Positions 1-49,300 of a DNA stretch of 64,000 bases are shown piece by piece. The notes beneath the pieces were generated by a model, which was not told the DNA's origin, searched no databases, and saw only the letters and a list, made by a program, of their open reading frames with translations. This stretch comes from Parapristionchus giblindavisi. Lineage: Eukaryota; Nematoda; Chromadorea; Rhabditida; Diplogasteridae. Location: NCBI GenBank assembly GCA_943737045.1, contig CALSFV010000050.1, positions 186,001 through 250,000 of the forward strand, written 5' to 3'. How positions within the stretch are numbered: position 1 is the first letter of the stretch; every line of letters starts with the position of its first letter. A program made the translations under genes and the position numbers.

Positions 1-3000
1 GAAGTAACGACGACGGTGGAACCCACGACTACTCCAGAAGCTACCACGACAGGTATACAGTTTTGGTACACTAAAAATAGTGCATAGAGTACTTCGTGAT
101 AGAGTTAGAGTCAAGAATTTAGGAGAGTGCGGGCAAAGAAGTAAGAAAAGATTTGAAAATAAAACTTTCAAAATTTCGAATTCGTCTAAATTAAGGTTTT
201 TTGCATGCTATTGAAAGATTTCTTGAAGTATATTTTACTTTTCTATACCTCTGCTCGATCAAGCTTGAGAAAACGTATTTCTAAATCTCACTGAAAAATC
301 ATACCGAACAGAACAAATTAGTAATATTGATTATTATCAGCCGAAATCACGACAACGCTCGAACTCACGACTACTGCGGAAGTTACCACAACACTCGAGC
401 CCACCACTACACCAGAAGTAACGACGACGGTGGAACCCACAACTACTCCTGAAGTAACGACGACGGTGGAACCCACAACTACACCAGAAGTAACCACGAC
501 GATGGAACCCACGACTACACCAGAAGTAACGACGACGGTGGAACCCACAACTACACCAGAAGTAACGACGACGGTGGAACCCACAACTACACCAGAAGTA
601 ACGACGACGGTGGAACCCACAACTACACCAGAAGTAACGACGACGGTGGAACCCACAACTACACCAGAAGTAACGACGACTGTGGAACCCACAACTACAC
701 CAGAAGTAACGACGACGGTGGAACCCACAACTACACCAGAAGTAACGACGACGGTGAAACCCACAACTACTCCTGAAGTAACGACGACGGTGGAACCCAC
801 AACTACACCAGAAGTAACGACGACGGTGGAACCCACAACTACTCCAGAAGCTACCACGACAGGTATACAGTTTTGGTACACTAAAAATAGTGCATAGAGT
901 ACTTCGTGATAGAGTTAGAGTCAAGAATTAAGGAGAGTGCGGGCAAAGAAGTAAGAAAAGATTTGAAAATAAAACTTTCAAAATTTTGAATTCGTCTAAA
1001 TTAAGGTTTTTTGCATGCTATTGAACGATTTCTTGAAGTATATTTTACTTTTCTATACCTCTGCTCGATCGAGCTTGAGAAAACGTATTTCTAAATCTCA
1101 CTGAAAAATCATACCGAACAGAATAAATTAGTAATATTGATTATTATCAGCCGAAATCACGACAACGCTCGAACCCACGACTACTGCGGAAGCTACCACA
1201 ACACTCGAGCCCACCACTACACCAGAAGTAACGACGACGGTGGAACCCACAACTACTCCTGAAGCTACCACGACAGGTATACAGTTTTGGTACACTAAAA
1301 ATAGTGCATAGAGTACTTCGTGATAGAGTTAGAGTCAAGAATTAAGGAGAGTGCGGGCAAAGAAGTAAGAAAAGATTTGAAAATAAAACTTTCAAAATTT
1401 TGAATTCGTCTAAATTAAGGTTTTTTGCATGCTATTGAAAGATTTCTTGAAGTATATTTTACTTCTCTATACCTCTGCTCGATCAAGCTTGAGAAAACGT
1501 ATTTCTAAATCTCACTGAAAAATCATACCGAACAGAACAAATTAGTAATATTGATTATTATCAGCCGAAATCACGACAACGCTCGAACCCACGACTACTG
1601 CGGAAGCTACCACAACACTCGAGCCCACCACTACACCAGAAGTAACGACGACGGTGGAACCCACAACTACACCAGAAGTAACGACGACGATGGAACCCAC
1701 AACTACACCAGAAGCTACCACGACAGGTATACAGTTTTGGTACACTAAAAATAGTGCATAGAGTACTTCGTGATAGAGTTAGAGTCAAGAATTAAGGAGA
1801 GTGCGGGCAAAGAAGTAAGAAAAGATTTGAAAATAAAACTCAAAATTTTGAATTCGTCTAAATTAAGGTTTTTTGCATGCTATTGAAAGATTTCTTGAAG
1901 TATATTTTACTTCTCTATACCTCTGCTCGATCAAGCTTGAGAAAACGTATTTCTAAATCTCACTGAAAAATCATACCGAACAGAACAAATTAGTAATATT
2001 GATTATTATCAGCCGAAATCACGACAACGCTCGAACCCACGACTACTGCGGAAGCTACCACAACACTCGAGCCCACCACTACACCAGAAGTAACCACGAC
2101 GATGGAATCCACAACTACACCAGAAGCTACCACGACAGGTATACAGTTTTGGTACACTAAAAATATTGCATAGAGTACTTCGTGATAGAGTTAGAGTCGA
2201 GAACTTAGGAGAGTGCGGGCAAAGAAGTAAGAAAATATTTGAAAATAAAACTTTCAAAATTTTGAATTCATCTAAATTAAGGTTTTTTGCATGCTATTGA
2301 AAGATTTCTTGAAGTATATTTAACTTTTCTATACCTCTGCTCGATCAAGCTTGAGAAAACGTATTTCTAAATCTCACTGAAAAATCATACCGAACAGAAC
2401 AAATTAGTAATATTGATTATTATCAGCCGAAATCACGACAACGCTCGAACCCACGACTACTGCGGAAGCTACCACAACACTCGAGCCCACCACTACACCA
2501 GAAGTAACGACGACGGTGGAACCCACAACTACACCAGAAGTAACGACGACGGTGAAACCCACAACTACTCCTGAAGTAACGACGACGGTGGAACCCACAA
2601 CTACACCAGAAGTAACGACGACGGTGGAACCCACAACTACTCCAGAAGCTACCACGACAGGTATACAGTTTTGGTACACTAAAAATAGTGCATAGAGTAC
2701 TTCGTGATAGAGTTAGAGTCAAGAATTAAGGAGAGTGCGGGCAAAGAAGTAAGAAAAGATTTGAAAATAAAACTTTCAAAATTTTGAATTCGTCTAAATT
2801 AAGGTTTTTTGCATGCTATTGAACGATTTCTTGAAGTATATTTTACTTTTCTATACCTCTGCTCGATCAAGCTTGAGAAAACGTATTTCTAAATCTCACT
2901 GAAAAATCATACCGAACAGAACAAATTAGTAATATTGATTATTATCAGCCGAAATCACGACAACGCTCGAACCCACGACTACTGCGGAAGCTACCACAAC

Positions 3001-4350
3001 ACTCGAGCCCACCACTACACCAGAAGTAACGACGACGGTGGAACCCACAACTACTCCTGAAGCTACCACGACAGGTATACAGTTTTGGTACACTAAAAAT
3101 AGTGCATAGAGTACTTCGTGATAGAGTTAGAGTCAAGAATTAAGGAGAGTGCGGGCAAAGAAGTAAGAAAAGATTTGAAAATAAAACTTTCAAAATTTTG
3201 AATTCGTCTAAATTAAGGTTTTTTGCATGCTATTGAAAGATTTCTTGAAGTATATTTTACTTCTCTATACCTCTGCTCGATCAAGCTTGAGAAAACGTAT
3301 TTCTAAATCTCACTGAAAAATCATACCGAACAGAACAAATTAGTAATATTGATTATTATCAGCCGAAATCACGACAACGCTCGAACCCACGACTACTGCG
3401 GAAGCTACCACAACACTCGAGCCCACCACTACACCAGAAGTAACGACGACGGTGGAACCCACAACTACACCAGAAGTAACGACGACGATGGAACCCACAA
3501 CTACACCAGAAGCTACCACGACAGGTATACAGTTTTGGTACACTAAAAATAGTGCATAGAGTACTTCGTGATAGAGTTAGAGTCAAGAATTAAGGAGAGT
3601 GCGGGCAAAGAAGTAAGAAAAGATTTGAAAATAAAACTCAAAATTTTGAATTCGTCTAAATTAAGGTTTTTTGCATGCTATTGAAAGATTTCTTGAAGTA
3701 TATTTTACTTCTCTATACCTCTGCTCGATCAAGCTTGAGAAAACGTATTTCTAAATCTCACTGAAAAATCATACCGAACAGAACAAATTAGTAATATTGA
3801 TTATTATCAGCCGAAATCACGACAACGCTCGAACCCACGACTACTGCGGAAGCTACCACAACACTCGAGCCCACCACTACACCAGAAGTAACCACGACGA
3901 TGGAATCCACAACTACACCAGAAGCTACCACGACAGGTATACAGTTTTGGTACACTAAAAATAGTGCATAGAGTACTTCGTGATAGAGTTAGAGTCGAGA
4001 ACTTAGGAGAGTGCGGGCAAAGAAGTAAGAAAATATTTGAAAATAAAACTGTCAAAATTTTGAATTCATCTAAATTAAGGTTTTTTGCATGCTATTGAAA
4101 GATTTCTTGAAGTATATTTAACTTTTCTATACCACTGCTCGATCAAGCTTGAGAAAACGTATTTCTAAATCTCACTGAAAAATCATACCGAACAGAACAA
4201 ATTAGTAATATTGATTATTATCAGCCGAAATCACGACAACGCTCGAACCCACGACTACTGCGGAAGCTACCACAACACTCGAGCCCACCACTACACCAGA
4301 AGTAACGACGACGGTGGAACCCACAACTACTCCAGAAGCTACCACGACAG
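1..4350 (+). CDS. Array zone I: mucin exons with a 1.8-kb duplication
   Basis: Exons: up to 52 (partial), 341-862, 1151-1276, 1565-1726, 2013-2138, 2427-2660, 2949-3074, 3363-3524, 3811-3936 and 4225-4350. The basic 126-nt exon starts with CC (completing a GCC Ala codon) and reads EITTTLEPTTTA, EATTTLEPTTTP, EVTTTVEPTTTP, EATTT, then one G. The 522-nt exon 341-862 holds eleven extra 12-residue repeats. The block 1151-2948 is repeated at 2949-4224 and beyond with an offset of exactly 1798 bp. Both copies share a 2-nt deletion in one intron (near 1838 and 3636, intron 286 nt), showing the duplication is recent. Confidence 0.85.
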
Positions 4351-7300
4351 GTATACAGTTTTGGTACACTAAAAATAGTGCATAGAGTACTTCGTGATAG
4401 AGTTAGAGTCAAGAATTAAGGAGAGTGCGGGCAAAGAAGTAAGAAAAGATTTGTAAATAAAACTTTCAAAATTTTGAATTCGTCTAAATTAAGGTTTTTT
4501 GCATGCTATTGAAAGATTTCTTGAAGTATATTTAACTTTTCTATACCTCTGCTCGATCAAGCTTGAGAAAACGTATTTCTAAATCTCACTGAAAAATCAT
4601 ACCGAACAGAACAAATTAGTAATATTGATTATTATCAGCCGAAATCACGACAACGCTCGAACCCACAACTACTCCTGAAGTAACGACGACGGTGGAACCC
4701 ACAACTACTCCTGAAGTAACGACGACGGTGGAACCCACAACTACACCAGAAGTAACCACGACGATGGAATCCACAACTACACCAGAAGCTACCACGACAG
4801 GTATACAGTTTTGGTACACTAAAAATAGTGCATAGAGTACTTCGTGATAGAGTTAGAGTCGAGAACTTAGGAGAGTGCGGGCAAAGAAGTAAGAAAATAT
4901 TTGAAAATAAAACTTTCAAAATTTTGAATTCGTCTAAATTAAGGTTTTTTGCATGCTATTGAAAGATTTCTTGAAGTATATTTAACGTTTCTATACCTCT
5001 GCTCGATCAAGCTTGAGAAAACGTATTTCTAAATCTCACTGAAAAATCATACCGAACAGAACAAATTAGTAATATTGATTATTATCAGCCGAAATCACGA
5101 CAACGCTCGAACCCACAACTACTCCTGAAGTAACGACGACGGTGGAACCCACAACTACTCCTGAAGTAACGACGACGGTGGAACCCACAACTACACCAGA
5201 AGTAACCACGACGATGGAATCCACAACTACACCAGAAGCTACCACGACAGGTATACAGTTTTGGTACACTAAAAATAGTGCATAGAGTACTTCGTGATAG
5301 AGTTAGAGTCGAGAACTTAGGAGAGTGCGGGCAAAGAAGTAAGAAAATATTTGAAAATAAAACTTTCAAAATTTTGAATTCATCTAAATTAAGGTTTTTT
5401 GCATGCTATTGAAAGATTTCTTGAAGTATATTTAACTTTTCTATACCACTGCTCGATCAAGCTTGAGAAAACGTATTTCTAAATCTCACTGAAAAATCAT
5501 ACCGAACAGAACAAATTAGTAATATTGATTATTATCAGCCGAAATCACGACAACGCTCGAACCCACGACTACTGCGGAAGCTACCACAACACTCGAGCCC
5601 ACCACTACACCAGAAGTAACCACGACGATGGAACCCACAACTACACCAGAAGCTACCTCGACAGGTATACAGTTTTGGTACACTAAAAATAGTGCATAGA
5701 GTACTTCGTGATAGAGTTAGAGTCAAGAATTAAGGAGAGTGCGGGCAAAGAAGTAAGAAAAGATTTGTAAATAAAACTTTCAAAATTTTGAATTCGTCTA
5801 AATTAAGGTTTTTTGCATGCTATTGAAAGATTTCTTGAAGTATATTTAACTTTTCTATACCTCTGCTCGATCAAGCTTGAGAAAACGTATTTCTAAATCT
5901 CACTGAAAAATCATACCGAACAGAACAAATTAGTAATATTGATTATTATCAGCCGAAATCACGACAACGCTCGAACCCACAACTACTCCTGAAGTAACGA
6001 CGACGGTGGAACCCACAACTACTCCTGAAGTAACGACGACGGTGGAACCCACAACTACACCAGAAGTAACCACGACGATGGAATCCACAACTACACCAGA
6101 AGCTACCTCGACAGGTATACAGTTTTGGTACACTAAAAATAGTGCATAGAGTACTTCGTGATAGAGTTAGAGTCAAGAATTAAGGAGAGTGCGGGCAAAG
6201 AAGTAAGAAAAGATTTGAAAATAAAACTTTCAAAATTTTGAATTCGTTTAAATTAAGGTTTTTTGCATGCTATTGAAAGATTTCTTGAACTATATTTAAC
6301 TTTTCTATACCTCTGCTCGATCAAGCTTGAGAAAACGTATTTCTAAATCTCACTGAAAAATCATACCGAACAGAACAAATTAGTAATATTGATTATTATC
6401 AGCCGAAATCACGACAACGCTCGAACCCACAACTACTCCTGAAGTAACGACGACGGTGGAACCCACAACTACTCCTGAAGTAACGACGACGGTGGAACCC
6501 ACAACTACACCAGAAGTAACCACGACGATGGAATCCACAACTACACCAGAAGCTACCACGACAGGTATACAGTTTTGGTACACTAAAAATAGTGCATAGA
6601 GTACTTCGTGATAGAGTTAGAGTCGAGAACTTAGGAGAGTGCGGGCAAAGAAGTAAGAAAATATTTGAAAATAAAACTTTCAAAATTTTGAATTCATCTA
6701 AATTAAGGTTTTTTGCATGCTATTGAAAGATTTATTGAAGTATATTTAACGTTTCTATACCTCTGCTCGATCAAGCTTGAGAAAACGTATTTCTAAATCT
6801 CACTGAAAAATCATACCGAACAGAACAAATTAGTAATATTGATTATTATCAGCCGAAATCACGACAACGCTCGAACCCACAACTACTCCTGAAGTAACGA
6901 CGACGGTGGAACCCACAACTACTCCTGAAGTAACGACGACGGTGGAACCCACAACTACACCAGAAGTAACCACGACGATGGAATCCACAACTACACCAGA
7001 AGCTACCACGACAGGTATACAGTTTTGGTACACTAAAAATAGTGCATAGAGTACTTCGTGATAGAGTTAGAGTCGAGAACTTAGGAGAGTGCGGGCAAAG
7101 AAGTAAGAAAATATTTGAAAATAAAACTTTCAAAATTTTGAATTCATCTAAATTAAGGTTTTTTGCATGCTATTGAAAGATTTCTTGAAGTATATTTAAC
7201 TTTTCTATACCTCTGCTCGATCAAGCTTGAGAAAACGTATTTCTAAATCTCACTGAAAAATCATACCGAACAGAACAAATTAGTAATATTGATTATTATC

Positions 7301-10300
7301 AGCCGAAATCACGACAACGCTCGAACCCACGACTACTGCGGAAGCTACCACAACACTCGAGCCCACCACTACACCAGAAGTAACCACGACGATGGAACCC
7401 ACAACTACACCAGAAGCTACCTCGACAGGTATACAGTTTTGGTACACTAAAAATAGTGCATAGAGTACTTCGTGATAGAGTTAGAGTCAAGAATTAAGGA
7501 GAGTGCGGGCAAAGAAGTAAGAAAAGATTTGTAAATAAAACTTTCAAAATTTTGAATTCGTCTAAATTAAGGTTTTTTGCATGCTATTGAAAGATTTCTT
7601 GAAGTATATTTAACTTTTCTATACCTCTGCTCGATCAAGCTTGAGAAAACGTATTTCTAAATCTCACTGAAAAATCATACCGAACAGAACAAATTAGTAA
7701 TATTGATTATTATCAGCCGAAATCACGACAACGCTCGAACCCACAACTACTCCTGAAGTAACGACGACGGTGGAACCCACAACTACTCCTGAAGTAACGA
7801 CGACGGTGGAACCCACAACTACACCAGAAGTAACCACGACGATGGAATCCACAACTACACCAGAAGCTACCACGACAGGTATACAGTTTTGGTACACTAA
7901 AAATAGTGCATAGAGTACTTCGTGATAGAGTTAGAGTCGAGAACTTAGGAGAGTGCGGGCAAAGAAGTAAGAAAATATTTGAAAATAAAACTTTCAAAAT
8001 TTTGAAATCATCTAAATTAAGGTTTTTTGCATGCTATTGAAAGATTTCTTGAAGTATATTTAACTTTTCTATACCTCTGCTCGATCAAGCTTGAGAAAAC
8101 GTATTTCTAAATCTCACTGAAAAATCATACCGAACAGAACAAATTAGTAATATTGATTATTATCAGCCGAAATCACGACAACGCTCGAACCCACGACTAC
8201 TGCGGAAGCTACCACAACACTCGAGCCCACCACTACACCAGAAGTAACGACGACGGTGGAACCCACAACTACTCCAGAAGCTACCACGACAGGTATACAG
8301 TTTTGGTACACTAAAAATAGTGCATAGAGTACTTCGTGATAGAGTTAGAGTCAAGAATTAAGGAGAGTGCGGGCAAAGAAGTAAGAAAAGATTTGAAAAT
8401 AAAACTTTCAAAATTTTGAATTCGTTTAAATTAAGGTTTTTTGCATGCTATTGAAAGATTTCTTGAAGTATATTTAACTTTTCTATACCTCTGCTCGATC
8501 AAGCTTGAGAAAACGTATTTCTAAATCTTACTGAAAAATCATACCGAACAGAACAAATTAGTAATATTGATTATTATCAGCCGAAATCACGACAACGCTC
8601 GAACCCACACCTACTCCTGAAGTAACGACGACGGTGGAACCCACAACTACTCCTGAAGTAACGACGACGGTGGAACCCACAACTACACCAGAAGTAACCA
8701 CGACGATGGAACCCATAACTACACCAGAAGCTACCACGACAGGTATACAGTTTTGGTACACTAAAAATAGTGCATAGAGTACTTCGTGATAGAGTTAGAG
8801 TCGAGAACTTAGGAGAGTGCGGGCAAAGAAGTAAGAAAAGATTTGAAAATAAAACTTTCAAAATTTTGAATTCATCTAAATTAAGTTTTTTTGCATGCTA
8901 TTGAAAGATTTCTTGAAGTATATTTAACTTTTCTATACCTCTGCTCGATCAAGCTTGAGAAAACGTATTTCTAAATCTCACTGATAAATCATACCGAACA
9001 GAACAAATTAGTAATATTGATTATTATCAGCCGAAATCACGACAACGCTCGAACCCACGACTACTGCGGAAGCTACCACAACACTCGAGCCCACCACTAC
9101 ACCAGAAGTAACGACGACGGTGGAACCCACAACTACTCCAGAAGCTACCACGACAGGTATACAGTTTTGGTACACTAAAAATAGTGCATAGAGTACTTCG
9201 TGATAGAGTTAGAGTCAAGAATTAAGGAGAGTGCGGGCAAAGAAGTAAGAAAAGATTTGAAAATAAAACTTTCAAAATTTTGAATTCGTTTAAATTAATG
9301 TTTTTTGCATGCTATTGAAAGATTTCTTGAAGTATATTTAACTTTTCTATACCTCTGCTCGATCAAGCTTGAGAAAACGTATTTCTAAATCTTACTGAAA
9401 AATCATACCGAACAGAACAAATTAGTAATATTGATTATTATCAGCCGAAATCACGACAACGCTCGAACCCACAACTACTCCTGAAGTAACGACGACGGTG
9501 GAACCCACAACTACTCCTGAAGTAACGACGACGGTGGAACCCACAACTACACCAGAAGTAACCACGACTATGGAACCCACAACTACACCAGAAGCTACCA
9601 CGACAGGTATACAGTTTTGGTACACTAAAAATAGTGCATAGAGTATTTCGTGATAGAGTTAGAGTCAAGAATTTAGGAGAGTGCGGGCAAAGAAGTAAGA
9701 GAAGATTTGAAAATAAAACTTTCAAAATTTTGAATTCGTCTAAATTAAGGTTTTTTGCATGCTATTGAAAGATTTCTTGAAGTATATTTAACTTTTCTAT
9801 ACCTCTGCTCGATCAAGCTTGAGAAAACGTATTTCTAAATCTCACTGAAAAATCATACCGAACAGAACAAATTAGTAATATTGAGTATTATCAGCCGAAA
9901 TCACGACAACGCTCGAACCCACAACTACTCCTGAAGTAACGACGACGGTGGAACCCACAACTACTCCTGAAGTAACGACGACGGTGGAACCCACAACTAC
10001 ACCAGAAGTAACCACGACGATGGAACCCACAACTACACCAGAAGCTACCACGACAGGTATACAGTTTTGGTACACTAAAAATAGTGCATAGAGTACTTCG
10101 TGATAGAGTTAGAGTCGAGAACTTAGGAGAGTGCGGGCAAAGAAGTAAGAAATTATTTGAAAATAAAACTTTCAAAATTTTGAATTCATCTAAATTAAGG
10201 TTTTTTGCATGCTATTGAAAGATTTCTTGAAGTATATTTAACTTTTCTATACCTCTGCTCGATCAAGCTTGAGAAAACGTATTTCTAAATCTCACTGAAA

Positions 10301-13300
10301 AATCATACCGAACAGAACAAATTAGTAATATTGATTATTATCAGCCGAAATCACGACAACGCTCGAACCCACGACTACTGCGGAAGCTACCACAACACTC
10401 GAGCCCACCACTACACCAGAAGTAACGACGACGGTGGAACCCACAACTACTCCAGAAGCTACCACGACAGGTATACAGTTTTGGTACACTAAAAATAGTG
10501 CATAGAGTACTTCGTGATAGAGTTAGAGTTGAGAACTTAGGAGAGTGCGGGCAAAGAAGTAAGAAAATATTTGAAAATAAAACTTTCAAAATTTTGAATT
10601 CATCTAAATTAAGGTTTTTTGCATGCTATTGAAAGATTTCTTGAAGTATATTTAACTTTTCTATACCTCTGCTCGATCAAGCTTGAGAAAACGTATTTCT
10701 AAATCTCACTGAAAAATCATACCGAACAGAACAAATTAGTAATATTGATTATTATCAGCCGAAATCACGACAACGCTCGAGCCCACGACTACTGCGGAAG
10801 CTACCACAACACTCGAGCCCACCACTACACCAGAAGTAACCACGACGATGGAACCCACAACTACACCAGAAGCTACCTCGACAGGTATACAGTTTTGGTA
10901 CACTAAAAATAGTGCATAGAGTACTTCGTGATAGAGTTAGAGTCAAGAATTAAGGAGAGTGCGGGCAAAGAAGTAAGAAAAGATTTGTAAATAAAACTTT
11001 CAAAATTTTGAATTCGTCTAAATTAAGGTTTTTTGCATGCTATTGAAAGATTTCTTGAAGTATATTTAACTTTTCTATACCTCTGCTCGATCAAGCTTGA
11101 GAAAACGTATTTCTAAATCTCACTGAAAAATCATACCGAACAGAACAAATTAGTAATATTGATTATTATCAGCCGAAATCACGACAACGCTCGAACCCAC
11201 AACTACTCCTGAAGTAACGACGACGGTGGAACCCACAACTACTCCTGAAGTAACGACGACGGTGGAACCCACAACTACACCAGAAGTAACCACGACGATG
11301 GAATCCACAACTACACCAGAAGCTACCACGACAGGTATACAGTTTTGGTACACTAAAAATAGTGCATAGAGTACTTCGTGATAGAGTTAGAGTCGAGAAC
11401 TTAGGAGAGTGCGGGCAAAGAAGTAAGAAAATATTTGAAAATAAAACTTTCAAAATTTTGAATTCATCTAAATTAAGGTTTTTTGCATGCTATTGAAAGA
11501 TTTCTTGAAGTATATTTAACTTTTCTATACCTCTGCTCGATCAAGCTTGAGAAAACGTATTTCTAAATCTCACTGAAAAATCATACCGAACAGAACAAAT
11601 TAGTAATATTGATTATTATCAGCCGAAATCACGACAACGCTCGAACCCACGACTACTGCGGAAGCTACCACAACACTCGAGCCCACCACTACACCAGAAG
11701 TAACCACGACGATGGAACCCACAACTACACCAGAAGCTACCTCGACAGGTATACAGTTTTGGTACACTAAAAATAGTGCATAGAGTACTTCGTGATAGAG
11801 TTAGAGTCAAGAATTAAGGAGAGTGCGGGCAAAGAAGTAAGAAAAGATTTGTAAATAAAACTTTCAAAATTTTGAATTCGTCTAAATTAAGGTTTTTTGC
11901 ATGCTATTGAAAGATTTCTTGAAGTATATTTAACTTTTCTATACCTCTGCTCGATCAAGCTTGAGAAAACGTATTTCTAAATCTCACTGAAAAATCATAC
12001 CGAACAGAACAAATTAGTAATATTGATTATTATCAGCCGAAATCACGACAACGCTCGAACCCACAACTACTCCTGAAGTAACGACGACGGTGGAACCCAC
12101 AACTACTCCTGAAGTAACGACGACGGTGGAACCCACAACTACACCAGAAGTAACCACGACGATGGAATCCACAACTACACCAGAAGCTACCACGACAGGT
12201 ATACAGTTTTGGTACACTAAAAATAGTGCATAGAGTACTTCGTGATAGAGTTAGAGTCGAGAACTTAGGAGAGTGCGGGCAAAGAAGTAAGAAAATATTT
12301 GAAAATAAAACTTTCAAAATTTTGAATTCATCTAAATTAAGGTTTTTTGCATGCTATTGAAAGATTTCTTGAAGTATATTTAACTTTTCTATACCTCTGC
12401 TCGATCAAGCTTGAGAAAACGTATTTCTAAATCTCACTGAAAAATCATACCGAACAGAACAAATTAGTAATATTGATTATTATCAGCCGAAATCACGACA
12501 ACGCTCGAACCCACGACTACTGCGGAAGCTACCACAACACTCGAGCCCACCACTACACCAGAAGTAACCACGACGATGGAACCCACAACTACACCAGAAG
12601 CTACCTCGACAGGTATACAGTTTTGGTACACTAAAAATAGTGCATAGAGTACTTCGTGATAGAGTTAGAGTCAAGAATTAAGGAGAGTGCGGGCAAAGAA
12701 GTAAGAAAAGATTTGTAAATAAAACTTTCAAAATTTTGAATTCGTCTAAATTAAGGTTTTTTGCATGCTATTGAAAGATTTCTTGAAGTATATTTAACTT
12801 TTCTATACCTCTGCTCGATCAAGCTTGAGAAAACGTATTTCTAAATCTCACTGAAAAATCATACCGAACAGAACAAATTAGTAATATTGATTATTATCAG
12901 CCGAAATCACGACAACGCTCGAACCCACGACTACTGCGGAAGCTACCACAACACTCGAGCCCACCACTACACCAGAAGTAACGACGACGGTGGAACCCAC
13001 AACTACTCCAGAAGCTACCACGACAGGTATACAGTTTTGGTACACTAAAAATAGTGCATAGAGTACTTCGTGATAGAGTTAGAGTTGAGAACTTAGGAGA
13101 GTGCGGGCAAAGAAGTAAGAAAATATTTGAAAATAAAACTTTCAAAATTTTGAATTCATCTAAATTAAGGTTTTTTGCATGCTATTGAAAGATTTCTTGA
13201 AGTATATTTAACTTTTCTATACCTCTGCTCGATCAAGCTTGAGAAAACGTATTTCTAAATCTCACTGAAAAATCATACCGAACAGAACAAATTAGTAATA

Positions 13301-28300: not shown

Positions 28301-31300
28301 GCTATTGAAAGATTTCTTGAAGTATATTTTACTTTTCTATACTTCTGCTCGATCAAGCTTGCGAAAACGTATTTCTAAATCTCACTGAAAAATCATACCC
28401 AACAGAACAAATTAGTAATATATTTTTTTTTATTATCAGCCGAAATCACGACAACGCTCGAACCGACGACTACTGCGGAAGCTACCACAACACTCGAGCC
28501 CACCACTACACCAGAAGTAACCACGACGATGGAACCCACAACTACACCAGAAGCTACCACGACAGGTATACAGTTTTGGTACACTAAAAATAGTGCATAG
28601 AGTACTTCGTGATAGAGTTAGAGTCGAGAACTTAGGAGAGTGCGGGCAAAGAAGTAAGAAAATATTTGAAAATAAAACTTTCAAAATTTTGAATTCGTCT
28701 AAATTAAGGTTTTTTGCATGCTATTGAAAGATTTCTTGAAGTATATTTTACTTTTCTATACTTCTGCTCGATCAAGCTTGCGAAAACGTATGTCTAAATC
28801 TCACTGAAAAATCATACCCAACAGAACAAATTAGTAATATTGATTATTATCAGCCGAAATCACGACAACGCTCGAACCGACGACTACTGCGGAAGCTACC
28901 ACAACACTCGAGCCCACCACTACACCAGAAGTAACCACGACGATGGAACCCACAACTACACCAGAAGCTACCACGACAGGTATACAGTTTTGGTACACTA
29001 AAAATAGTGCATAGAGTACTTCGTGATAGAGTTAGAGTCGAGAACTCAGGAGAGTGCGGGCCAAGAAGTAAGAAAATATTTGAAAATAAAACTTTCAAAA
29101 TTTTGAATTCGTCTAAATTAAGGTTTTTTGCATGCTATTGAAAGATTTCTTGAAGTATATTTTACTTTTCTATACTTCTGCTCGATCAAGCTTGCGAAAA
29201 CGTATTTCTAAATCTCACTGAAAAATCATACCCAACAGAACAAATTAGTAATATTGATTATTATCAGCCGAAATCACGACAACGCTCGAACCGACGACTA
29301 CTGCGGAAGCTACCACAACACTCGAGCCCACCACTACACCAGAAGTAACCACGACGATGGAACCCACAACTACACCAGAAGCTACCACGACAGGTATACA
29401 GTTTTGGTACACTAAAAATAGTGCATAGAGTACTTCGTGATAGAGTTAGAGTCGAGAACTTAGGAGAGTGCGGGCCAAGAAGTAAGAAAATATTTGAAAA
29501 TAAAACTTTCAAAATTTTGAATTCGTCTAAATTAAGGTTTTTTGCATGCTATTGAAAGATTTCTTGAAGTATATTTTACTTTTCTATACTTCTCCTCGAT
29601 CAAGCTTGCGAAAACGTATTTCTAAATCTCACTGAAAAATCATACCCAACAGAACAAATTAGTAATATTGATTATTATCAGCCGAAATCACGACAACGCT
29701 CGAACCGACGACTACTGCGGAAGCTACCACAACACTCGAGCCCACCACTACACCAGAAGTAACCACGACGATGGAACCCACAACTACACCAGAAGCTACC
29801 ACGACAGGTATACAGTTTTGGTACACTAAAAATAGTGCATAGAGTACTTCGTGATAGAGTTAGAGTCGAGAACTTAGGAGAGTGCGGGCAAAGAAGTAAG
29901 AAAATATTTGAAAATAAAACTTTCAAAATTTTGAATTCGTCTAAATTAAGGTTTTTTGCATGCTATTGAAAGATTTCTTGAAGTATATTTTACTTTTCTA
30001 TACTTCTGCTCGATCAAGCTTGCGAAAACGTATTTCTAAATCTCACTGAAAAATCATACCCAACAGAACAAATTAGTAATATTGATTATTATCAGCCGAA
30101 ATCACGACAACGCTCGAACCGACGACTACTGCGGAAGCTACCACAACACTCGAGCCCACCACTACACCAGAAGTAACCACGACGATGGAACCCACAACTA
30201 CACCAGAAGCTACCACGACAGGTATACAGTTTTGGTACACTAAAAATAGTGCATAGAGTACTTCGTGATAGAGTTAGAGTCGAGAACTCAGGAGAATGCG
30301 GGCCAAGAAGTAAGAAAATATTTGAAAATAAAACTTTCAAAATTTTGAATTCGTCTAAATTAAGGTTTTTTGCATGCTATTGAAAGATTTCTTGAAGTAT
30401 ATTTTACTTTTCTATACTTCTGCTCGATCAAGCTTGCGAAAACGTATTTCTAAATCTCACTGAAAAATCATACCCAACAGAACAAATTAGTAATATTGAT
30501 TATTATCAGCCGAAATCACGACAACGCTCGAACCGACGACTACTGCGGAAGCTACCACAACACTCGAGCCCACCACTACACCAGAAGTAACCACGACGAT
30601 GGAACCCACAACTACACCAGAAGCTACCACGACAGGTATACAGTTTTGGTACACTAAAAATAGTGCATAGAGTACTTCGTGATAGAGTTAGAGTCGAGAA
30701 CTTAGGAGAGTGCGGGCCAAGAAGTAAGAAAATATTTGAAAATAAAACTTTCAAAATTTTGAATTCGTCTAAATTAAGGTTTTTTGCATGCTATTGAAAG
30801 ATTTCTTGAAGTATATTTTACTTTTCTATACTTCTGCTCGATCAAGCTAGCGAAAACGTATTTCTAAATCTCACTGAAAAATCATACCCAACAGAACAAA
30901 TTAGTAATATTGATTATTATCAGCCGAAATCACGACAACGCTCGAACCGACGACTACTGCGGAAGCTACCACAACACTCGAGCCCACCACTACACCAGAA
31001 GTAACCACGACGATGGAACCCACAACTACACCAGAAGCTACCACGACAGGTATACAGTTTTGGTACACTAAAAATAGTGCATAGAGTACTTCGTGATAGA
31101 GTTAGAGTCGAGAACTTAGGAGAGTGCGGGCCAAGAAGTAAGAAAATATTTGAAAATAAAACTTTCAAAATTTTGAATTCGTCTAAATTAAGGTTTTTTG
31201 CATGCTATTGAAAGATTTCTTGAAGTATATTTTACTTTTCTATACTTCTGCTCGATCAAGCTTGCGAAAACGTATTTCTAAATCTCACTGAAAAATCATA

Positions 31301-37300: not shown

Positions 37301-40300
37301 TACTTCGTGATAGAGTTAGAGTCGAGAACTTAGGAGAGTGCGGGCCAAGAAGTAAGAAAATATTTGAAAATAAAACTTTCAAAATTTTGAATTCGTCTAA
37401 ATTAAGGTTTTTTGCATGCTATTAAAGATTTCTTGAAGTATATTTTACTTTTCTATACTTCTGCTCGATCAAGCTTGCGAAAACGTATTTCTAAATCTAA
37501 CTGAAAAATCATACCGAACAGAACAAATTAGTAATATTGATTCTTATCAGTCGAAATCACGACAACGCTCGAACCCACGACTACTGCGGAAGCTACCACA
37601 ACACTCGAGCCCACCACTACACCAGAAGTAACGACGACGGTGGAACCCACAACTACACCAGAAGTAACGACGACGGTGGAAACCACAACTACACCAGAAG
37701 TAACCACGACGATGGAACCCACAACTACACCAGAAGTAACGACGACGGTGGAACCCACAACTACACCAGAAGTAACGACGACGGTGGAACCCACAACTAC
37801 TCCCGAAGTAACCACGACGATGGAACCCACAACTACACCAGAAGCTACCACGACAGGTATACAGTTTTGGTACACTAAAAATAGTGCATAGAGTACTTCG
37901 TGATAGAGTTAGAGTCGAGAACTTAGGAGAGTGCGGGCAAAGAAGTAAGAAAATATTTGAAAATAAAACTTTCAAAATTTTGAATTCATCTAAATTAAGG
38001 TTTTTTTGCATGCCATTGAAAAATTTCTTGAAGTATATTTTACTTACTTCTGCTCGATCAAGCTTGAGAAAACGTATTTCGAAATCTCACTGAAAAATCA
38101 TACCGAACAGAACAAATTAGTAATATTGATTATTATCAGCCGAAATCACGACAACGCTCGAACCCACGACTACTGCGGAAGCTACCACAACACTCGAGCC
38201 CACCACTACACCAGAATTAACGACGACGGTGGAACCCACAACTACACCAGAAGTAACGACGACGGTGGAACTCACAACTACACCAGAAGTAACCACGACG
38301 ATGGAACCCACAACTACACCAGAAGCTACCACGACAGGTATACAGTTTTGGTACACTAAAAATAGTGCATAGAGTACTTCGTGATAGAGTTAGAGTCGAG
38401 AACTTAGGAGAGTGCGGGCCAAGAAGTAAGAAAATATTTGAAAATAAAACTTTCAAAATTTTGAATTCGTCTAAATTAAGGTTTTTTGCATGCTATTAAA
38501 GATTTCTTGAAGTATATTTTACTTTTCTATACTTCTGTTCGATCAAGCTTGCGAAAACGTATTTCTAAATCTAACTGAAAAATCATACCGAACAGAACAA
38601 ATTAGTAATATTGATTCTTATCAGTCGAAATCACGACAACGCTCGAACCCACGACTACTGCGGAAGCTACCACAACACTCGAGCCCACCACTACACCAGA
38701 AGTAACGACGACGGTGGAACCCACAACTACACCAGAAGTAACGACGACGGTGGAACCCACAACTACACCAGAAGTAACCACGACGATGGAACCCACAACT
38801 ACACCAGAAGTAACGACGACGGTGGAACCCACAACTACACCAGAAGTAACGACGACGGTGGAACCCACAACTACTCCCGAAGTAACCACGACGATGGAAC
38901 CCACAACTACACCAGAAGCTACCACGACAGGTATACAGTTTTGGTACACTACAAATAGTGCATAGAGTACTTCGTGATAGAGTTAGAGTCGAGAACTTAG
39001 GAGAGTGCGGGCAAAGAAGTAAGAAAATATTTGAAAATAAAACTTTCAAAATTTTGAATTCATCTAAATTAAGGTTTTTTTGCATGCCATTGAAAAATTT
39101 CTTGAAGTATATTTTACTTACTTCTGCTCGATCAAGCTTGAGAAAACGTATTTCGAAATCTCACTGAAAAATCATACCGAACAGAACAAATTAGTAATAT
39201 TGATTATTATCAGCCGAAATCACGACAACGCTCGAACCCACGACTACTGCGGAAGCTACCACAACACTCGAGCCCACCACTACACCAGAATTAACGACGA
39301 CGGTGGAACCCACAACTACACCAGAAGTAACGACGACGGTGGAACCCACAACTACACCAGAAGTAACCACGACGATGGAACCCACAACTACACCAGAAGT
39401 AACGACGACGGTGGAACCCACAACTACACCAGAAGTAACGACGACGGTGGAACCCACAACTACTCCCGAAGTAACCACAACGATGGAACCCACAACTACA
39501 CCAGAAGTAACGACGACGGTGGAACCCACGATGGAACCCACAACTACACCAGAAGTAACGAACTACTGGAACCCACCTGAAGTAACGACGACGGTGGAAC
39601 CCACAACTACACCAGAAGTAACCACGACGATGGAACCCACAACTACACCAGAAGTAACGACGACGGTGGAACCCACAACTACACCAGAAGTAACGACGAC
39701 GGTGGAACCCACAACTACTCCCGAAGTAACCACGACGATGGAACCCACAACTACACCAGAAGCTACCACGACAGGTATACAGTTTTGGTACACTAAAAAT
39801 AGTGCATAGAGTACTTCGTGATAGAGTTAGAGTCGAGAACTTAGGAGAGTGCGGGCAAAGAAGTAAGAAAATATTTGAAAATAAAACTTTCAAAATTTTG
39901 AATTCATCTAAATTAAGGTTTTTTTGCATGCCATTGAAAAATTTCTTGAAGTATATTTTACTTACTTCTGCTCGATCAAGCTTGAGAAAACGTATTTCTA
40001 AATCTCACTGAAAAATCATACCGAACAGAACAAATTAGTAATATTGATTATTATCAGCCGAAATCACGACAACGCTCGAACCCACGACTACTGCGGAAGC
40101 TACCACAACACTCGAGCCCACCACTACACCAGAAGTAACGACGACGGTGGAACCCACAACTACACCAGAAGTAACGACGACGGTGGAACCCACAACTACA
40201 CCAGAAGTAACCACGACGATGGAACCCACAACTACACCAGAAGTAACGACGACGGTGGAACCCACAACTACACCAGAAGTAACGACGACGGTGGAACCCA

Positions 40301-43300
40301 CAACTACTCCCGAAGTAACCACAACGATGGAACCCACAACTACACCAGAAGTAACGACGACGGTGGAACCCACAACTACTCCTGAAGTAACGACGACGGT
40401 GGAACCCACAACTACACCAGAAGTAACCACGACGATGGAACCCACAACTACACCAGAAGTAACGACGACGGTGGAACCCACAACTACACCAGAAGTAACG
40501 ACGACGGTGGAACCCACAACTACTCCCGAAGTAACCACGACGATGGAACCCACAACTACACCAGAAGCTACCACGACAGGTATACAGTTTTGGTACACTA
40601 AAAATAGTGCATAGAGTACTTCGTGATAGAGTTAGAGTCGAGAACTTAGGAGAGTGCGGGCAAAGAAGTAAGAAAATATTTGAAAATAAAACTTTCAAAA
40701 TTTTGAATTCATCTAAATTAAGGTTTTTTTGCATGCCATTGAAAAATTTCTTGAAGTATATTTTACTTACTTCTGCTCGATCAAGCTTGAGAAAACGAAA
40801 ATATTTGAAAATAAAACTTTCAAAATTTTGAATTCATCTAAATTAAGGTTTTTTTGCATGCCATTGAAAAATTTCTTGAAGTATATTTTACTTACTTCTG
40901 CTCGATCAAGCTTGAGAAAACGTATTTCTAAATCTCACTGAAAAATCATACCGAACAGAACAAATTAGTAATATTGATTATTATCAGCCGAAATCACGAC
41001 AACGCTCGAACCCACGACTACTGCGGAAGCTACCACAACACTCGAGCCCACCACTACACCAGAAGTAACGACGACGGTGGAACCCACAACTACACCAGAA
41101 GTAACGACGACGGTGGAACCCACAACTACACCAGAAGTAACCACGACGATGGAACCCACAACTACACCAGAAGTAACGACGACGGTGGAACCCACAACTA
41201 CACCAGAAGTAACGACGACGGTGGAACCCACAACTACTCCCGAAGTAACCACAACGATGGAACCCACAACTACACCAGAAGTAACGACGACGGTGGAACC
41301 CACAACTACTCCTGAAGTAACGACGACGGTGGAACCCACAACTACACCAGAAGCTACCACGACAGGTATACAGTTTTGGTACACTATAAATAGTGCATAG
41401 AGTACTTCGTGATCGAGTTAGAGTCGAGAACTTAGGAGAGTGCGGGCCAAGAAGTAAGAAAATATTTGAAAATAAAACTTTCAAAATTTTGAATTCGTCT
41501 AAATTAAGGTTTTTTGCATGCTATTAAAGATTTCTTGAAGTATATTTCACTTTTCTATACTTCTGCTCGATCAAGCTTGCGAAAACGTATTTCTAAATCT
41601 CACTGAAAAATCATACCGAACAGAACAAATTAGTAATATTGATTCTTATCAGTCGAAATCACGACAACGCTCGAACCCACGACTACTGCGGAAGCTACCA
41701 CAACACTCGAGCCCACCACTACACCAGAAGTAACGACGACGGTGGAACCCACAACTACACCAGAAGTAACGACGACGGTGGAACCCACAACTACACCAGA
41801 AGTAACCACGACGATGGAACCCACAACTACACCAGAAGTAACGACGACGGTGGAACCCACAACTACTCCTGAAGTAACGACGACGATGGAACCCACAACT
41901 ACACCAGAAGTAACGACGACGGTGGAACCCACAACTACTCCCGAAGTAACCACGACGATGGAACCCACAACTACACCAGAAGCTACCACGACAGGTATAC
42001 AGTTTTGGTACACTAAAAATAGTGCATATAGTACTTCGTGATAGAGTTAGAGTCGAGAACTTAGGAGAGTGCGGGCAAAGAAGTAAGAAAATATTTGAAA
42101 ATAAAACTTTCAAAATTTTGAATTCATCTAAATTAAGGTTTTTTGCATGCTATTAAAGATTTTTTGAAGTATATTTTACTTTTCTATACTTCTGCTCGAT
42201 CAAGCTTGCGAAAACGTATTTCTAAATCTCACTGAAAAATCATACCGAACAGAACAAATTAGTAATATTGATTCTTATCAGTCGAAATCACGACAACGCT
42301 CGAACCCACGACTACTGCTTAACGACGACGGTGGAACCCACAACTACACCAGAAGTAACCGACGGTGGAACCCACAACTACACCAGCTACCACGAAGGTA
42401 GTCGAATAAAACTTTCAAAATTTTGAATTCATCTAAATTAAGGTTTTTTGCATGCTATTAAAGATTTTTTGAAGTATATTTTACTTTTCTATACTTCTGC
42501 TCGATCAAGCTTGCGAAAACGTATTTCTAAATCTCACTGAAAAATCATACCGAACAGAACAAATTAGTAATATTGATTCTTATCAGTCGAAATCACGACA
42601 ACGCTCGAACCCACGACTACTGCGGAAGCTACCACAACACTCGAGCCCACCACTACACCAGAAGTAACGACGACGGTGGAACCCACAACTACACCAGAAG
42701 TAACGACGACGGTGGAACCCACAACTACACCAGAAGCTACCACGACAGGTATACAGTTTTGGTACACTATAAATAGTGCATAGAGACTTCGTGATAGAGT
42801 TAGAGTCGAGAACTTAGGAGAGTGCGGGCCAAGAAGTAAGAAAATATTTGAAAATAAAACTTTCAAAATTTTGAATTCATCTAAATTAAGGTTTTTTTGC
42901 ATGCCATTGAAAAATTTCTTGAAGTATATTTTACTTACTTCTGCTCGATCAAGCTTGAGAAAACGTATTTCTAAATCTCACTGAAAAATCATACCGAACA
43001 GAACAAATTAGTAATATTGATTATTATCAGCCGAAATCACGACAACGCTCGAACCCACGACTACTGCGGAAGCTACCACAACACTCGAGCCCACCACTAC
43101 ACCAGAAGTAACGACGACGGTGGAACCCACAACTACACCAGAAGTAACGACGACGGTGGAACCCACAACTACACCAGAAGTAACCACGACGATGGAACCC
43201 ACAACTACACCAGAAGTAACGACGACGGTGGAACCCACAACTACACCAGAAGTAACGACGACGGTGGAACCCACAACTACTCCCGAAGTAACCACAACGA

Positions 43301-46300
43301 TGGAACCCACAACTACACCAGAAGTAACGACGACGGTGGAACCCACAACTACTCCCGAAGTAACCACGACGATGGAACCCACAACTACACCAGAAGCTAC
43401 CACGACAGGTATACAGTTTTGGTACACTAAAAATAGTGCATAGAGTACTTCGTGATAGAGTTAGAGTCGAGAACTTAGGAGAGTGCGGGCCAAGAAGTAA
43501 GAAAATATTTGAAAATAAAACTTTCAAAATTTTGAATTCGTCTAAATTAAGGTTTTTTGCATGCTATTAAAGATTTCTTGAAGTATATTTCACTTTTCTA
43601 TACTTCTGCTCGATCAAGCTTGCGAAAACGTATTTCTAAATCTCACTGAAAAATCATACCGAACAGAACAAATTAGTAATATTGATTCTTATCAGTCGAA
43701 ATCACGACAACGCTCGAACCCACGACTACTGCGGAAGCTACCACAACACTCGAGCCCACCACTACACCAGAAGTAACGACGACGGTGGAACCCACAACTA
43801 CACCAGAAGTAACCACGACGATGGAACCCACAACTACACCAGAAGTAACGACGACGGTGGAACCCACAACTACTCCTGAAGTAACGACGACGATGGAACC
43901 CACAACTACACCAGAAGTAACGACGACGGTGGAACCCACAACTACTCCCGAAGTAACCACGACGATGGAACCCACAACTACACCAGAAGCTACCACGACA
44001 GGTATACAGTTTTGGTACACTAAAAATAGTGCATAGAGTACTTCGTGATAGAGTTAGAGTCGAGAACTTAGGAGAGTGCGGGCAAAGAAGTTAGAAAATA
44101 TTTGAAAATAAAACTTTCAAAATTTTGAATTCATCTAAATTAAGGTTTTTTGCATGCTATTAAAGATTTCTTGAAGTATATTTCACTTTTCTATACTTCT
44201 GCTCGATCAAGCTTGCGAAAACGTATTTCTAAATCTCACTGAAAAATCATACCGAACAGAACAAATTAGTAATATTGATTCTTATCAGTCGAAATCACGA
44301 CAACGCTCGAACCCACGACTACTGCGGAAGCTACCACAACACTCGAGCCCACCACTACACCAGAAGTAACGACGACGGTGGAACCCACAACTACACCAGA
44401 AGTAACGACGACGGTGGAACCCACAACTACACCAGAAGCTCCCACGACAGGTATACAGTTTTGGTACACTATAAATAGTGCATAGAGTACTTCGTGATAG
44501 AGTTAGAGTCGAGAACTTAGGAGAGTGCGGGCCAAGAAGTAAGAAAATATTTGAAAATAAAACTTTCAAAATTTTGAATTCGTCTAAATTAAGGTTTTTT
44601 GCATGCTATTAAAGATTTCTTGAAGTTTATTTCACTTTTCTATACTTCTGCTCGATCAAGCTTGCGAAAACGTATTTCTAAATCTCACTGAAAAATCATA
44701 CCGAACAGAACAAATTAGTAATATTGATTCTTATCAGTCGAAATCACGACAACGCTCGAACCCACGACTACTGCGGAAGCTACCACAACACTCGAGCCCA
44801 CCACTACACCAGAAGTAACGACGACGGTGGAACCCACAACTACACCAGAAGTAACGACGACGGTGGAACCCACAACTACACCAGAAGTAACCACGACGAT
44901 GGAACCCACAACTACACCACAAGTAACGACGACGGTGGAACCCACAACTACTCCTGAAGTAACGACGACGATGGAACCCACGACGACGATGGAACCCACA
45001 ACTTCACCAGAAGTAACGACGACGGTGGAACCCACAACTACTCCCGAAGTAACCACGACGATGGAACCCACAACTACACCAGAAGCTACCACGACAGGTA
45101 TACAGTTTTGGTACACTAAAAATAGTGCATAGAGTACTTCGTGATAGAGTTAGAGTCGAGAACTTAGGAGAGTGCGGGCAAAGAAGTAAGAAAATATTTG
45201 AAAATAAAACTTTCAAAATTTTAAATTCATCTAAATTAAGGTTTTTTGCATGCTATTAAAGATTTTTTGAAGTATATTTTACTTTTCTATACTTCTGCTC
45301 GATCAAGCTTGCGAAAACGTATTTCTAAATCTCACTGAAAAATCATACCGAACAGAACAAATTAGTAATATTGATTCTTATCAGTCGAAATCACGACAAC
45401 GCTCGAACCCACGACTACTGCGGAAGCTACCACAACACTCGAGCCCACCACTACACCAGAAGTAACGACGACGGTGGAACCCACAACTACACCAGAAGTA
45501 ACGACGACGGTGGAACCCACAACTACACCAGAAGAAACCACGACGATGGAACCCACAACTACACCAGAAGTAACGACGACGGTGGAACCCACAACTTCTC
45601 CTGAAGTAACGACGACGATGGAACCCACAACTACACCAGAAGTAACGACGACGGTGGAACCCACAACTACTCCCGAAGTAACCACGACGATGGAACCCAC
45701 AACTACACCAGAAGCTACCACGACAGGTATACAGTTTTGGTACACTAAAAATAGTGCATAGAGTACTTCGTGATAGAGTTAGAGTCGAGAACTTAGGAGA
45801 GTGCGGGCAAAGAAGTAAGAAAATATTTGAAAATAAAACTTTCAAAATTTTGAATTCGTCTAAATTAAGGTTTTTTGCATGCTATTAAAGATTTCTTGAA
45901 GTATATTTCACTTTTCTATACTTCTGCTCGATCAAGCTTGCGAAAACGTATTTCTAAATCTCACTGAAAAATCATACCGAACTGAACAAATTAGTAATAT
46001 TGATTCTTATCAGTCGAAATCACGACAACGCTCGAACCCACGACTACTGCGGAAGTTACCACAACACTCGAGCCCACCACTACACCAGAAGTAACGACGA
46101 CGGTGGAACCCACAACTACACCAGAAGTAACGACGACGGTGGAACCCACAACTACACCAGAAGTAACCACGACGATGGAACCCACAACTACACCAGAAGT
46201 AACGACGACGGTGGAGCCCACAACTACTCCTGAAGTAACGACGACGATGGAACCCACAACTACACCAGAAGTAACGACGACGGTGGAACCCACAACTACT

Positions 46301-49300
46301 CCCGAAGTAACGACGACGGTGGAACCCACAACTACACCAGAAGTAACGACGACGGTGGAACCCACAACTACACCAGAAGTAACCACGACAATCGAGCCCA
46401 CGACTACTCCAGAAGCTACCACGACAGGTATGCAGTTTTGGTACACAAAATAGTGCATCGAGTACTTCGTGATAGAGTTAGAGTCGAGAACTTAAGAGAG
46501 TGAGAGCAAAATAGGCTCGCCGTATTTTGATTCCGACTATTATGTAGTGTTTAGATATCACATTTGATCTATTTTACATATCTACTCTCACAGAAATATA
46601 GCTTAAAAATAGGGTATAATTCCTTAAAATTGGGTCTCCAAACGGAATTATTTCCTCACATGTGAGGGAATATTTCACAAATTTCTCTTTCCTCAGGAAA
46701 ATATTCCCACACATATTAATAATATTTTTTATTAATAATATTTTGTCATTTCTTACAGAGAGGTTACTTATGGTGCGGATAAATAGAGATATTTGAGCGT
46801 GAAATCAAATATGAAGAAACGTAGTATGCACTGCAATTACTTGTTCACGGCGACCTTTTTTCGTACGAAAGAACAAAACATCGTTGGGTTGGGTTGAATT
46901 ACAGGGCATATGAGGGAATAAATACGTCCGGGGACAATATTAGGGATATTTTGTTCTCAATTTCACTCATGTTTCTTTTGCAGTTCCGTCAACAACCCCG
47001 ATAGCAACAACTGTCGAGGTATCGATTTTTATTATATATTATTAGTGCACAATACTATACTTTTCTGAAGAAAAACTCTCCTTTCAAAGCATCGAAAACT
47101 CTTTGGCCAGTCTTATCTAATCTACCGACTATCGACTGCAACAGACAAAGCCTGTCTGGAATAGCTGACAATTTTAAAAAATTCCAATCTGTACAATTAT
47201 GTTTTTTTTTGTTTATTTCCAAACACAATCGTTTCAGATTCCTGCCTGCTGCCCAACTGGAGGTATCTGGTCAGAATGGACCGTTGCCGGATCATGCCCG
47301 ACAATTTGCGGATCTTGTAATAATGCGACCAGAACCAGAACATGTAAATCAATGGTCGATGGATGTCCATGCACGTGAGTATTGACCGTATAAAATACAC
47401 TTGTTTATTTGGTACGAGAGTAGCCAACCACTGCCACAATGAATTTATATGTTTAGAAAGAGAGCACCGGTGAGAGAGTAGGTAGATCATAGAGAGCGAG
47501 GAAGGAAAGGAGGAAAGAGTAAGGAGTTAATCGATAGTTCTTCCTCTGTTTAGCAGCAGTAGCAATGCAATTATGCAAGTACATTTTATACGGACAATAT
47601 CAAATTTTGCGAAATCTTTCGAACTTGCCTCTTACACAACTTGCCTATGTACGTGTAAAGGAACAAACACCCCGAGCCAATTTGAAACTCCGCTCTGACA
47701 ACGCGTTCTCGCTTCCATTGTCGTCTTCTATAAAGCGTTACCAGCGCGGGGAGTTTCAAATTAGCTCGGGTGTGCCATTTAGAAAAAATAACAAAATGAA
47801 GTAAAATACGACACATTTCAGTGGAGCCGCATCCGATGTTGGTCCTTGCGGTATCGCACTCTGCACGTTCCCTAACAAAACATGTTGCGCTCCTTATGTA
47901 AAATCTCTGAATAACAACACGAAGGCGTTCTTCTGTGGAGTAGCCAGCGTACCACTGGATCCAGAATACAGCTGTACCACCACTCCACTACCTACCACGG
48001 CTCCGACAACTACAACCGTTGCTACCACCACGGTTCAGGTTAGTCTGATTAAAGGGAGAGTGGCCTCTCTCAATGGTCTCTTCATTATGTGCACTATTTC
48101 TCTGTTTCCTAACAACGAGAGTTGAAGAGACTATTGACAAAGGTTTCGGTCCCTTTAAAAAATGCTACATGCTCCTCACGGGATTGCAATGAGTGATGAT
48201 AGAATTATTTATTCAACAATTACTTATTGGGTTAACTTTAGATTCCTGCTTGCTGCCCGTCCGGAGGTATTTGGTCAGAATGGACCGTTACCGGATCATG
48301 CCCGACCATTTGCGGATCATGCAACAATGCCACAAGAACCAGAACCTGCACATCAATGGTCGATGGATGTCCATGCGCGTGAGTATCATATTTTGCGAAA
48401 TCTTTCGAATTTGACTTTTGCTTTGAATATGAAAATACGGACACGTAGATATTTTTTTAAATATATAAATGAAACATTGCAGTGGAGCCGCATCCGATGT
48501 TGGTCCTTGCGGTATCGCCCTCTGCACGTTCCCTAACAAGACTTGTTGCGCTCCTTACGTGAAATCGCTGAATAACAACACGAAGGCGTTCTTCTGTGGA
48601 GTAGCCAGTGTACCACTGGATCCAGAATATAGCTGTACCACCACTGCGCTCCAGACGACAGCCCCTACAACAACTGTAAGTATTTTTGCTATAATGATGT
48701 TTTTTTTTACTGTACTGGGACTGCCTGAAGTAAGAAGGCTTTTACAATGCACATTAAAGAGTGCTCTAAATGTTTTTAAATGAAATAAATGAAGTTGCAC
48801 TAACCAAAAAAAAGATCAAATAGACACAATTATTTGTAGGTTCCTGCTTGCTGCCCCTCAGGAGGTATCTGGTCAGAATGGACCGTTACCGGATCATGCC
48901 CGACAATTTGCGGATCTTGTAATAATGCAACACGAACCAGAACATGCAACTCTCTTGCTGATGGATGTCCGTGCGCGTGAGTTTATTAACGACTTATTTG
49001 TTTTATTGATCTTATTCTATGCTGCGAGTTCATTGATAGCTTTGTGCTGTTTTATATGATTTTACTAATATATCACGGTAGGGGGATACAAATCATGTTT
49101 CTTCTATCTTGCCAGACTATATTAATCATCATCTCTTATAACAGAAACGACAACCATGTCAAAATAGTATAATTGTAGAGAATTACAATATCTGAAAATA
49201 TCACGATCAACCTTTCATCCCTAAATTATATATTTTCTCAATCAAAGATCTCAGAATGAAAGAATCTTGTAATATGAAATACATTATTTCAGGGGAGCCG

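Follow-up and report, generated by a model that had tools for sequence, protein, structure and literature searches.

The stretch analysed here, called the window, comprises 64,000 nucleotides (nt) of the nematode Parapristionchus giblindavisi, namely the plus strand of contig CALSFV010000050.1 (hereafter C50) at C50:186001-250000, from a source genome of 251 Mb in 703 contigs. It contains a tandem array in which a threonine-rich exon and its flanking intron are repeated head to tail, followed by cysteine-rich modules in what we read as a single gene. Parsing covered the window joined to its flanks, 100 kb on the upstream and 20 kb on the downstream side, with relaxed donor and acceptor motifs (4-5 mismatches tolerated), and all evidence on splicing and coding comes from phase and codon comparison of one genome's DNA. 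On the contig, motif parsing gave 112 exons with both splice motifs and one broken unit, that is 113 units. The window holds 97 whole exons, one partial exon (1-52) and one broken unit (42282-42586), in agreement with the count of about 99 exons in an earlier reading made from the letters alone (the sequence-only reading). The features in the window are the following:

1..52, + strand: 3' end of array exon #15 (whole exon C50:185891-186052), from motif parsing
341..46427, + strand: window portion of the array, made up of the broken unit plus whole exons #16-#112 (97 in number) and their introns, from motif parsing
1151..1276, + strand: exon #17, example of the commonest exon type (126 nt, 42 codons; 51 of 112)
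1277..1564, + strand: example array intron, 288 nt, GTATAC...TTATCAG
29682..29807, + strand: exon #83, within a run of thirteen 126-nt exons (#80-#92)
39214..39774, + strand: array exon #102 (561 nt), in which small indels compensate each other so that the frame is kept
40672..40922, + strand: perfect 125-nt tandem duplication within a single 408-nt intron
42282..42586, + strand: broken unit, with several small exon deletions and with the donor and the 5' part of the intron missing
46984..47018, + strand: linker exon, 35 nt, encoding VPSTTPIATTVE with a carried-over G; phase 1 to 0
47238..54900, + strand: nine cysteine-rich modules of two exons each (137 nt; 160-217 nt), with TAG at 54898-54900

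The array extends over 56.5 kb, from exon e4 (C50:175893-176630), which is related to the array exons and heads them, to C50:232427, so that its start lies about 10 kb before the window. Its 112 exons and 112 introns follow each other head to tail inside one gene. Besides the 51 exons of 126 nt there are 24 of 162 nt, 12 of 198 nt and others of up to 810 nt, and 107 of the 112 lengths equal 18+36n; the misfits are #6, #8, #10, #102 and #110, of which #6 and #110 depart in in-frame steps. Most units measure 414 or 450 nt. All 112 complete introns run from GT to AG and contain stops in all three frames. A length of exactly 288 nt is found in 73 of them and 287 nt in 21 (range 275-408), and their 74 distinct sequences have a mean pairwise identity of 97.2% (minimum 93.4%), which bears out the near-identical introns of roughly 288 nt described before. 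The predicted exon-exon junction of the unit joins ...CGACAG to CCGAAATC. In a comparison of the array intron with the genome (113 candidates), all 40 scored matches fell on C50; no second array-intron locus was found among these 40, and we therefore rejected the intron as a dispersed element. A structured RNA in the intron was likewise rejected (fold z-score +0.74, one intron), as was a known RNA family, with no Rfam match in the window at the gathering threshold.

The exons keep one reading frame. Each of the 97 whole exons in the window is a multiple of 3 without an in-frame stop, as the sequence-only reading had held for intact exons, and the same applies to 13 of the 15 array exons with starts upstream of the window, the exceptions being #8 and #10. 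Joining the partial first exon, the 97 whole exons and the 19 downstream exons (46984-54900) gives 21,090 nt, or 7,030 codons in one frame, whose sole stop is terminal; the codon count proposed earlier was thus reproduced exactly. The array peptide leads into VPSTTPIATTVE and then into the nine two-exon modules, with the stop at window 54900. Across the gene model, 133 of 136 exons share one frame without disturbance (all but #8, #10 and the broken unit), and the codon sum of all exons found, leaving out #8 and the broken unit, is 9,601, which includes the internal stop of #10 and the terminal stop. To some extent such constancy of frame is trivial, given that every array exon copies a single unit whose inner repeat measures 36 nt.

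Upstream of the array lies an older, diverged layer, consisting of exons e1 (C50:172209-172280), e2 (172679-172990), e3 (173210-175174) and e4. Their lengths of 72, 312, 1965 and 738 nt are all multiples of 3 in phase 1-1, e3 being made of a different repeat. The three introns between them, 219-718 nt long, are diverged relatives of the array intron, with 160/233, 118/158 and 129/176 identical columns (69-75%) and with scores of 29.5, 35.5 and 47.5 against 24.0, 24.5 and 33.0 for the best of 200 single-base shuffles. Copies that are old enough for such drift of their introns in sequence and length have thus retained both frame and splice points. The ends of e1, e2 and e4 show 33 mismatches to the array consensus, 23 of them at third positions. 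The ratio of nonsynonymous to synonymous differences per site (pN/pS) is 0.14 in the mucin frame (Fisher p 1.4e-8) versus 1.44 and 2.39 in the other two frames, with the reservation, to be set beside those weighed below, that the test pools five short stretches sharing the array side, so that the p value overstates independence. This synonymous bias of the older layer is good evidence for a predicted spliced coding gene.

The array itself carries a related signal in its inner repeats. Among 412 inner 36-nt repeats from 108 of the 112 exons (#6, #8, #10 and #102 left out), 11 columns have a minor share above 5%, and a count by eye places 9 of these at third positions (hypergeometric p 1e-4). 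Furthermore, the frame stays open through 110 of 112 exons, while of the 13 distinct indels seen in introns 11 have lengths not divisible by 3. The sequence-only reading had proposed a unit of acceptor, mucin exon, donor and intron within one long gene, and the sequence supports this well, with phases consistent through the flanking exons and a synonymous bias in that frame only. Most probably the locus harbours one long spliced gene, whose product would be a threonine-rich, putatively secreted protein of mucin-like type with nine C-terminal thrombospondin-1-like modules; the exons found account for about 9,600 residues. The gene would have grown by unequal exchange at two nested levels.

The array peptide is composed of 49.5% Thr, 16.5% Glu, 13.6% Pro and 0.4% Ser (111 of 112 exons; #8 left out, #10 included with its stop), a long Thr/Ser/Pro-rich tandem-repeat region of the mucin-like kind. 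In the window modules, the thrombospondin-1-like first half scores at most 24.2 bits with PF22195 against a cut-off of 27; the relative P0001 is above both cut-offs, with 35.4 for PF22195 (27) and 34.1 for PF00090 (21.6). A module also matched the PDB chain 7r84_A (Vasculostatin-120) with an E value of 3.5e-5. The module search returned 12 proteins, of which the 11 with a name are all from nematodes. The best relative is PFISCL1PPCAC_1569 of Pristionchus fissidentatus (family Neodiplogasteridae), with 56% identity over 92% of the query, and L3Y34_010697 of C. briggsae contains the same cysteine module at 42% identity. No long Thr-rich array was present in eight module relatives, in a search that admitted only proteins of 0.55-1.75 times the 350-residue query. 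The predicted structure of P0001, considered as a stand-in for the module, had a mean predicted local distance difference test (pLDDT) score of 47.7 and was not used. From the composition and the C-terminal modules, we infer that the protein may be a glycosylated component of a surface or secretion.

Within the source genome, further module matches lie on contigs C80, C240, C334, C204 and C79. No similar array was found near the paralogous modules in 26 kb (four stretches) of C80 and C240, a small part of those loci in which Thr-rich frames were sought on the forward strand only. Several module hits in C80:1-18000 have mirror-image counterparts of equal score on the minus strand of C240:1-18000, which would fit an end that is duplicated in, or overlaps between, the two contigs.

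The array introns are homogenised in the manner of concerted evolution, with the high mean identity given above and lower identity at greater distance (98.05% at lag 1, 96.08% at lag 90). Among the lags computed, identity is highest at lag 2 (98.44%), and a spacing of two units is seen for 5 of the 12 exact repeats that reach or exceed 800 bp; together these suggest that exchange often shifts units two at a time. The boundary of two intron subfamilies falls between introns 59 and 60. Exon lengths are more uniform in the centre, with 4 lengths among 76 exons versus 15 among the 36 edge exons (boundary set by eye). The paper on SmPoMuc, the mucin genes of Schistosoma mansoni, expects exchange in the array centre and inhibition at the edges (PMC2576457).

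As a mechanism, we propose that an ancestral phase 1-1 exon was duplicated in tandem with its intron, and that the first duplications would have given copies that later diverged (e1-e4). The modern array may then have grown, shrunk and homogenised through unequal exchange of whole units, the introns being passengers of unit duplication, and the 36-nt codon repeat inside the exons would expand separately as a second, nested level. Each step involves whole phase 1-1 units or whole 12-codon repeats, so the frame would be kept automatically, and protein length should vary between individuals.

The locus is of the same kind as the SmPoMuc-like tandem exon-intron genes, with 113 units and a nested inner repeat. 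In SmPoMuc, exon 2 and its introns form tandem repeats of about 1 kb that are more than 93% identical, with at most 20 units per gene (PMC2576457). Both are mucin genes whose repeat region consists of a tandem small exon with flanking intron under concerted evolution, but SmPoMuc has a 27-bp exon, several genes and microsatellites between units (PMC2576457). The gene described here, in contrast, has exons of 126-810 nt with a 36-nt inner repeat and 113 units at one locus; the likeness drawn here is one of architecture. Repeated exons and introns under concerted evolution are also cited for a spider silk gene (Hayashi and Lewis 2000, cited in PMC2576457), which encodes silk instead of mucin and whose introns are more homogenised than its exons (PMC2576457), whereas the two are about equal here in the 126-nt units. 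A further cited case is SOWgp of Coccidioides, a surface glycoprotein encoded by one gene copy, in which both exons and introns recur almost unchanged and evolve in concert (PMC2576457). In the LPA kringle IV-2 array, a unit of about 5.55 kb with two exons occurs in up to about 40 copies; it is likewise a coding tandem repeat of exons and introns with varying copy number, but it encodes folded kringles, and population variation has been shown for LPA as against one genome here (PMC7613587). The sequence-only reading had called the present array unusual, which stands for the copy number but not for the architecture, a kind already known (PMC2576457; PMC7613587).

SOWgp differs from the gene described here in being fungal. 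It has fewer repeats, and the spider silk gene is reportedly the flagelliform gene, with about a dozen repeats. The locus would be a natural system for studying the growth and frame-keeping of tandem exon arrays. It combines two nested repeat levels, two intron subfamilies and an old diverged layer beside a young array, and it raises a splicing question, namely the ordered removal of more than 110 near-identical introns sharing one donor. Because short reads and gene predictors cope poorly with arrays of this type, other genomes may contain similar genes that are overlooked.

The sequence-only reading had also suggested a possible length-tuning system, in which copy number, or the choice among near-identical exons in splicing, would set protein length adaptively. 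This would be an addition to the mechanism proposed above and not its opposite, and we consider it possible at best. Two nested steps, of 12 codons and of whole units (commonest 42 or 54 codons), both preserve the frame, and SmPoMuc transcripts have up to 100 repeats against the at most 20 per gene in the genome (PMC2576457). However, neutral unequal exchange would lead to the same pattern, and no tandem exon duplication could survive without phase symmetry, which is therefore in itself no evidence of tuning. On a still bolder and equally tentative view, the array may be hypervariable at both levels, with individuals differing by tens of units and in 36-nt repeats, a variable number of units entering the mRNA without cost to the frame, and the animal exploiting the range of mucin lengths, at its surface or in its secretions, that this produces; the array would then perhaps be the largest tandem-exon system of its kind.

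Several observations weigh against an intact coding gene, and some of them would fit a partly decayed one, in which the array once coded and is now a pseudogene, or in which the 5' array and the modules no longer end up in one protein. Exon #8 has a net frameshift with indels within about 80 nt, exon #10 has an internal stop with indels spread over a few hundred nt, and the broken unit lacks its donor; each would disrupt the protein if real and not skipped. Exon #102 also carries a cluster of frame-disturbing indels, which cancel out. At the 5' end, C50:160000-172190 was scanned for start exons that end in a phase-1 donor, and nothing but a poly-isoleucine stretch turned up. About 100 nt ahead of e1 there is an open frame whose beginning resembles a signal peptide, but inspection by eye showed no phase-1 donor in it; no signal-peptide exon joined in phase was found upstream of the gene. 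For the N-terminal part of the P. pacificus protein P0007, there was no match in the source genome and only chance-level similarity in the joined contig stretch. The array donor is GTATAC, whereas 14 of the 17 module donors read GTGAGT or GTAAGT.

The recent copies add further such points. In the 51 exons of 126 nt, variable sites number 7, 4 and 3 at codon positions 3, 1 and 2, a weak coding signal. A clearly slower evolution of exons than of introns was expected among recent copies and was not found: for the 126-nt exons and their introns, variable sites number 14/126 versus 56/288 (p 0.045), with equal diversity (0.0249 and 0.0255). Taken by region, the variable sites show no such difference in #17-#58 (10/126 versus 20/288, p 0.69) and a slight one in #60-#92 (8/126 versus 40/288, p 0.03). 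The 162-nt exons (n=24) are more variable than the introns (30/162 versus 25/288, p 0.004), in part because more than one exon type is compared, and the 198-nt exons (n=12) do not differ from the introns (p 0.13). Intron splice ends are only slightly less variable than the middle (3/18 versus 79/270 sites). With exons about as diverse as introns, it is entire units that appear to be homogenised among the young copies, and selection on individual copies has left little trace.

We nevertheless judge decay improbable. The disturbances affect few exons and are clustered small indels; they look like uncorrected long-read error. A premature stop is absent from all 18 module exons and from 110 of the 112 in the array, which also speaks against decay, and skipping of phase 1-1 exons would preserve the frame. 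We keep to the single long coding gene, for whose array we infer a present-day function.

An untranslated tandem satellite inside a large intron of a thrombospondin-module gene would account for the homogenised tandem units and for the equal diversity of their 'exon' and 'intron' parts in the 126-nt class, but it is very improbable in view of an open frame that continues in phase into the non-array exons at either end and of the synonymous bias in the mucin frame only, in the older layer. An assembly artefact with an inflated or collapsed copy number is just as hard to credit, for although clustered indels in a few of the long exons hint at incomplete polishing, 74 of the 112 introns are distinct, the scored genome matches are all on C50, and the longest exact repeat in the array is 1,751 bp, so that long reads should resolve it and reads of at least 10 kb should place the units.

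Other elements lie around the gene. Upstream of it, a 33-nt tandem repeat occupies C50:163409-165431 (L011:7409-9431) in 61 copies, largely within open frames of VEFKDQSIIRR-like repeats, and a long ATT trinucleotide run is found at L010:3300-3470. The intron between modules 5 and 6 holds a long inverted-repeat element (window 51006-52500), whose arms at 51182-51338 and 52229-52385 are 97% complementary and which has many partial copies in the genome with up to 96% identity. Further downstream, a fold-back element spans window 57832-58792, with 388-nt arms that are 91% complementary and 185 nt apart, and window 60210-61470 contains a candidate decayed mariner-type transposon, judged from resemblance by eye.

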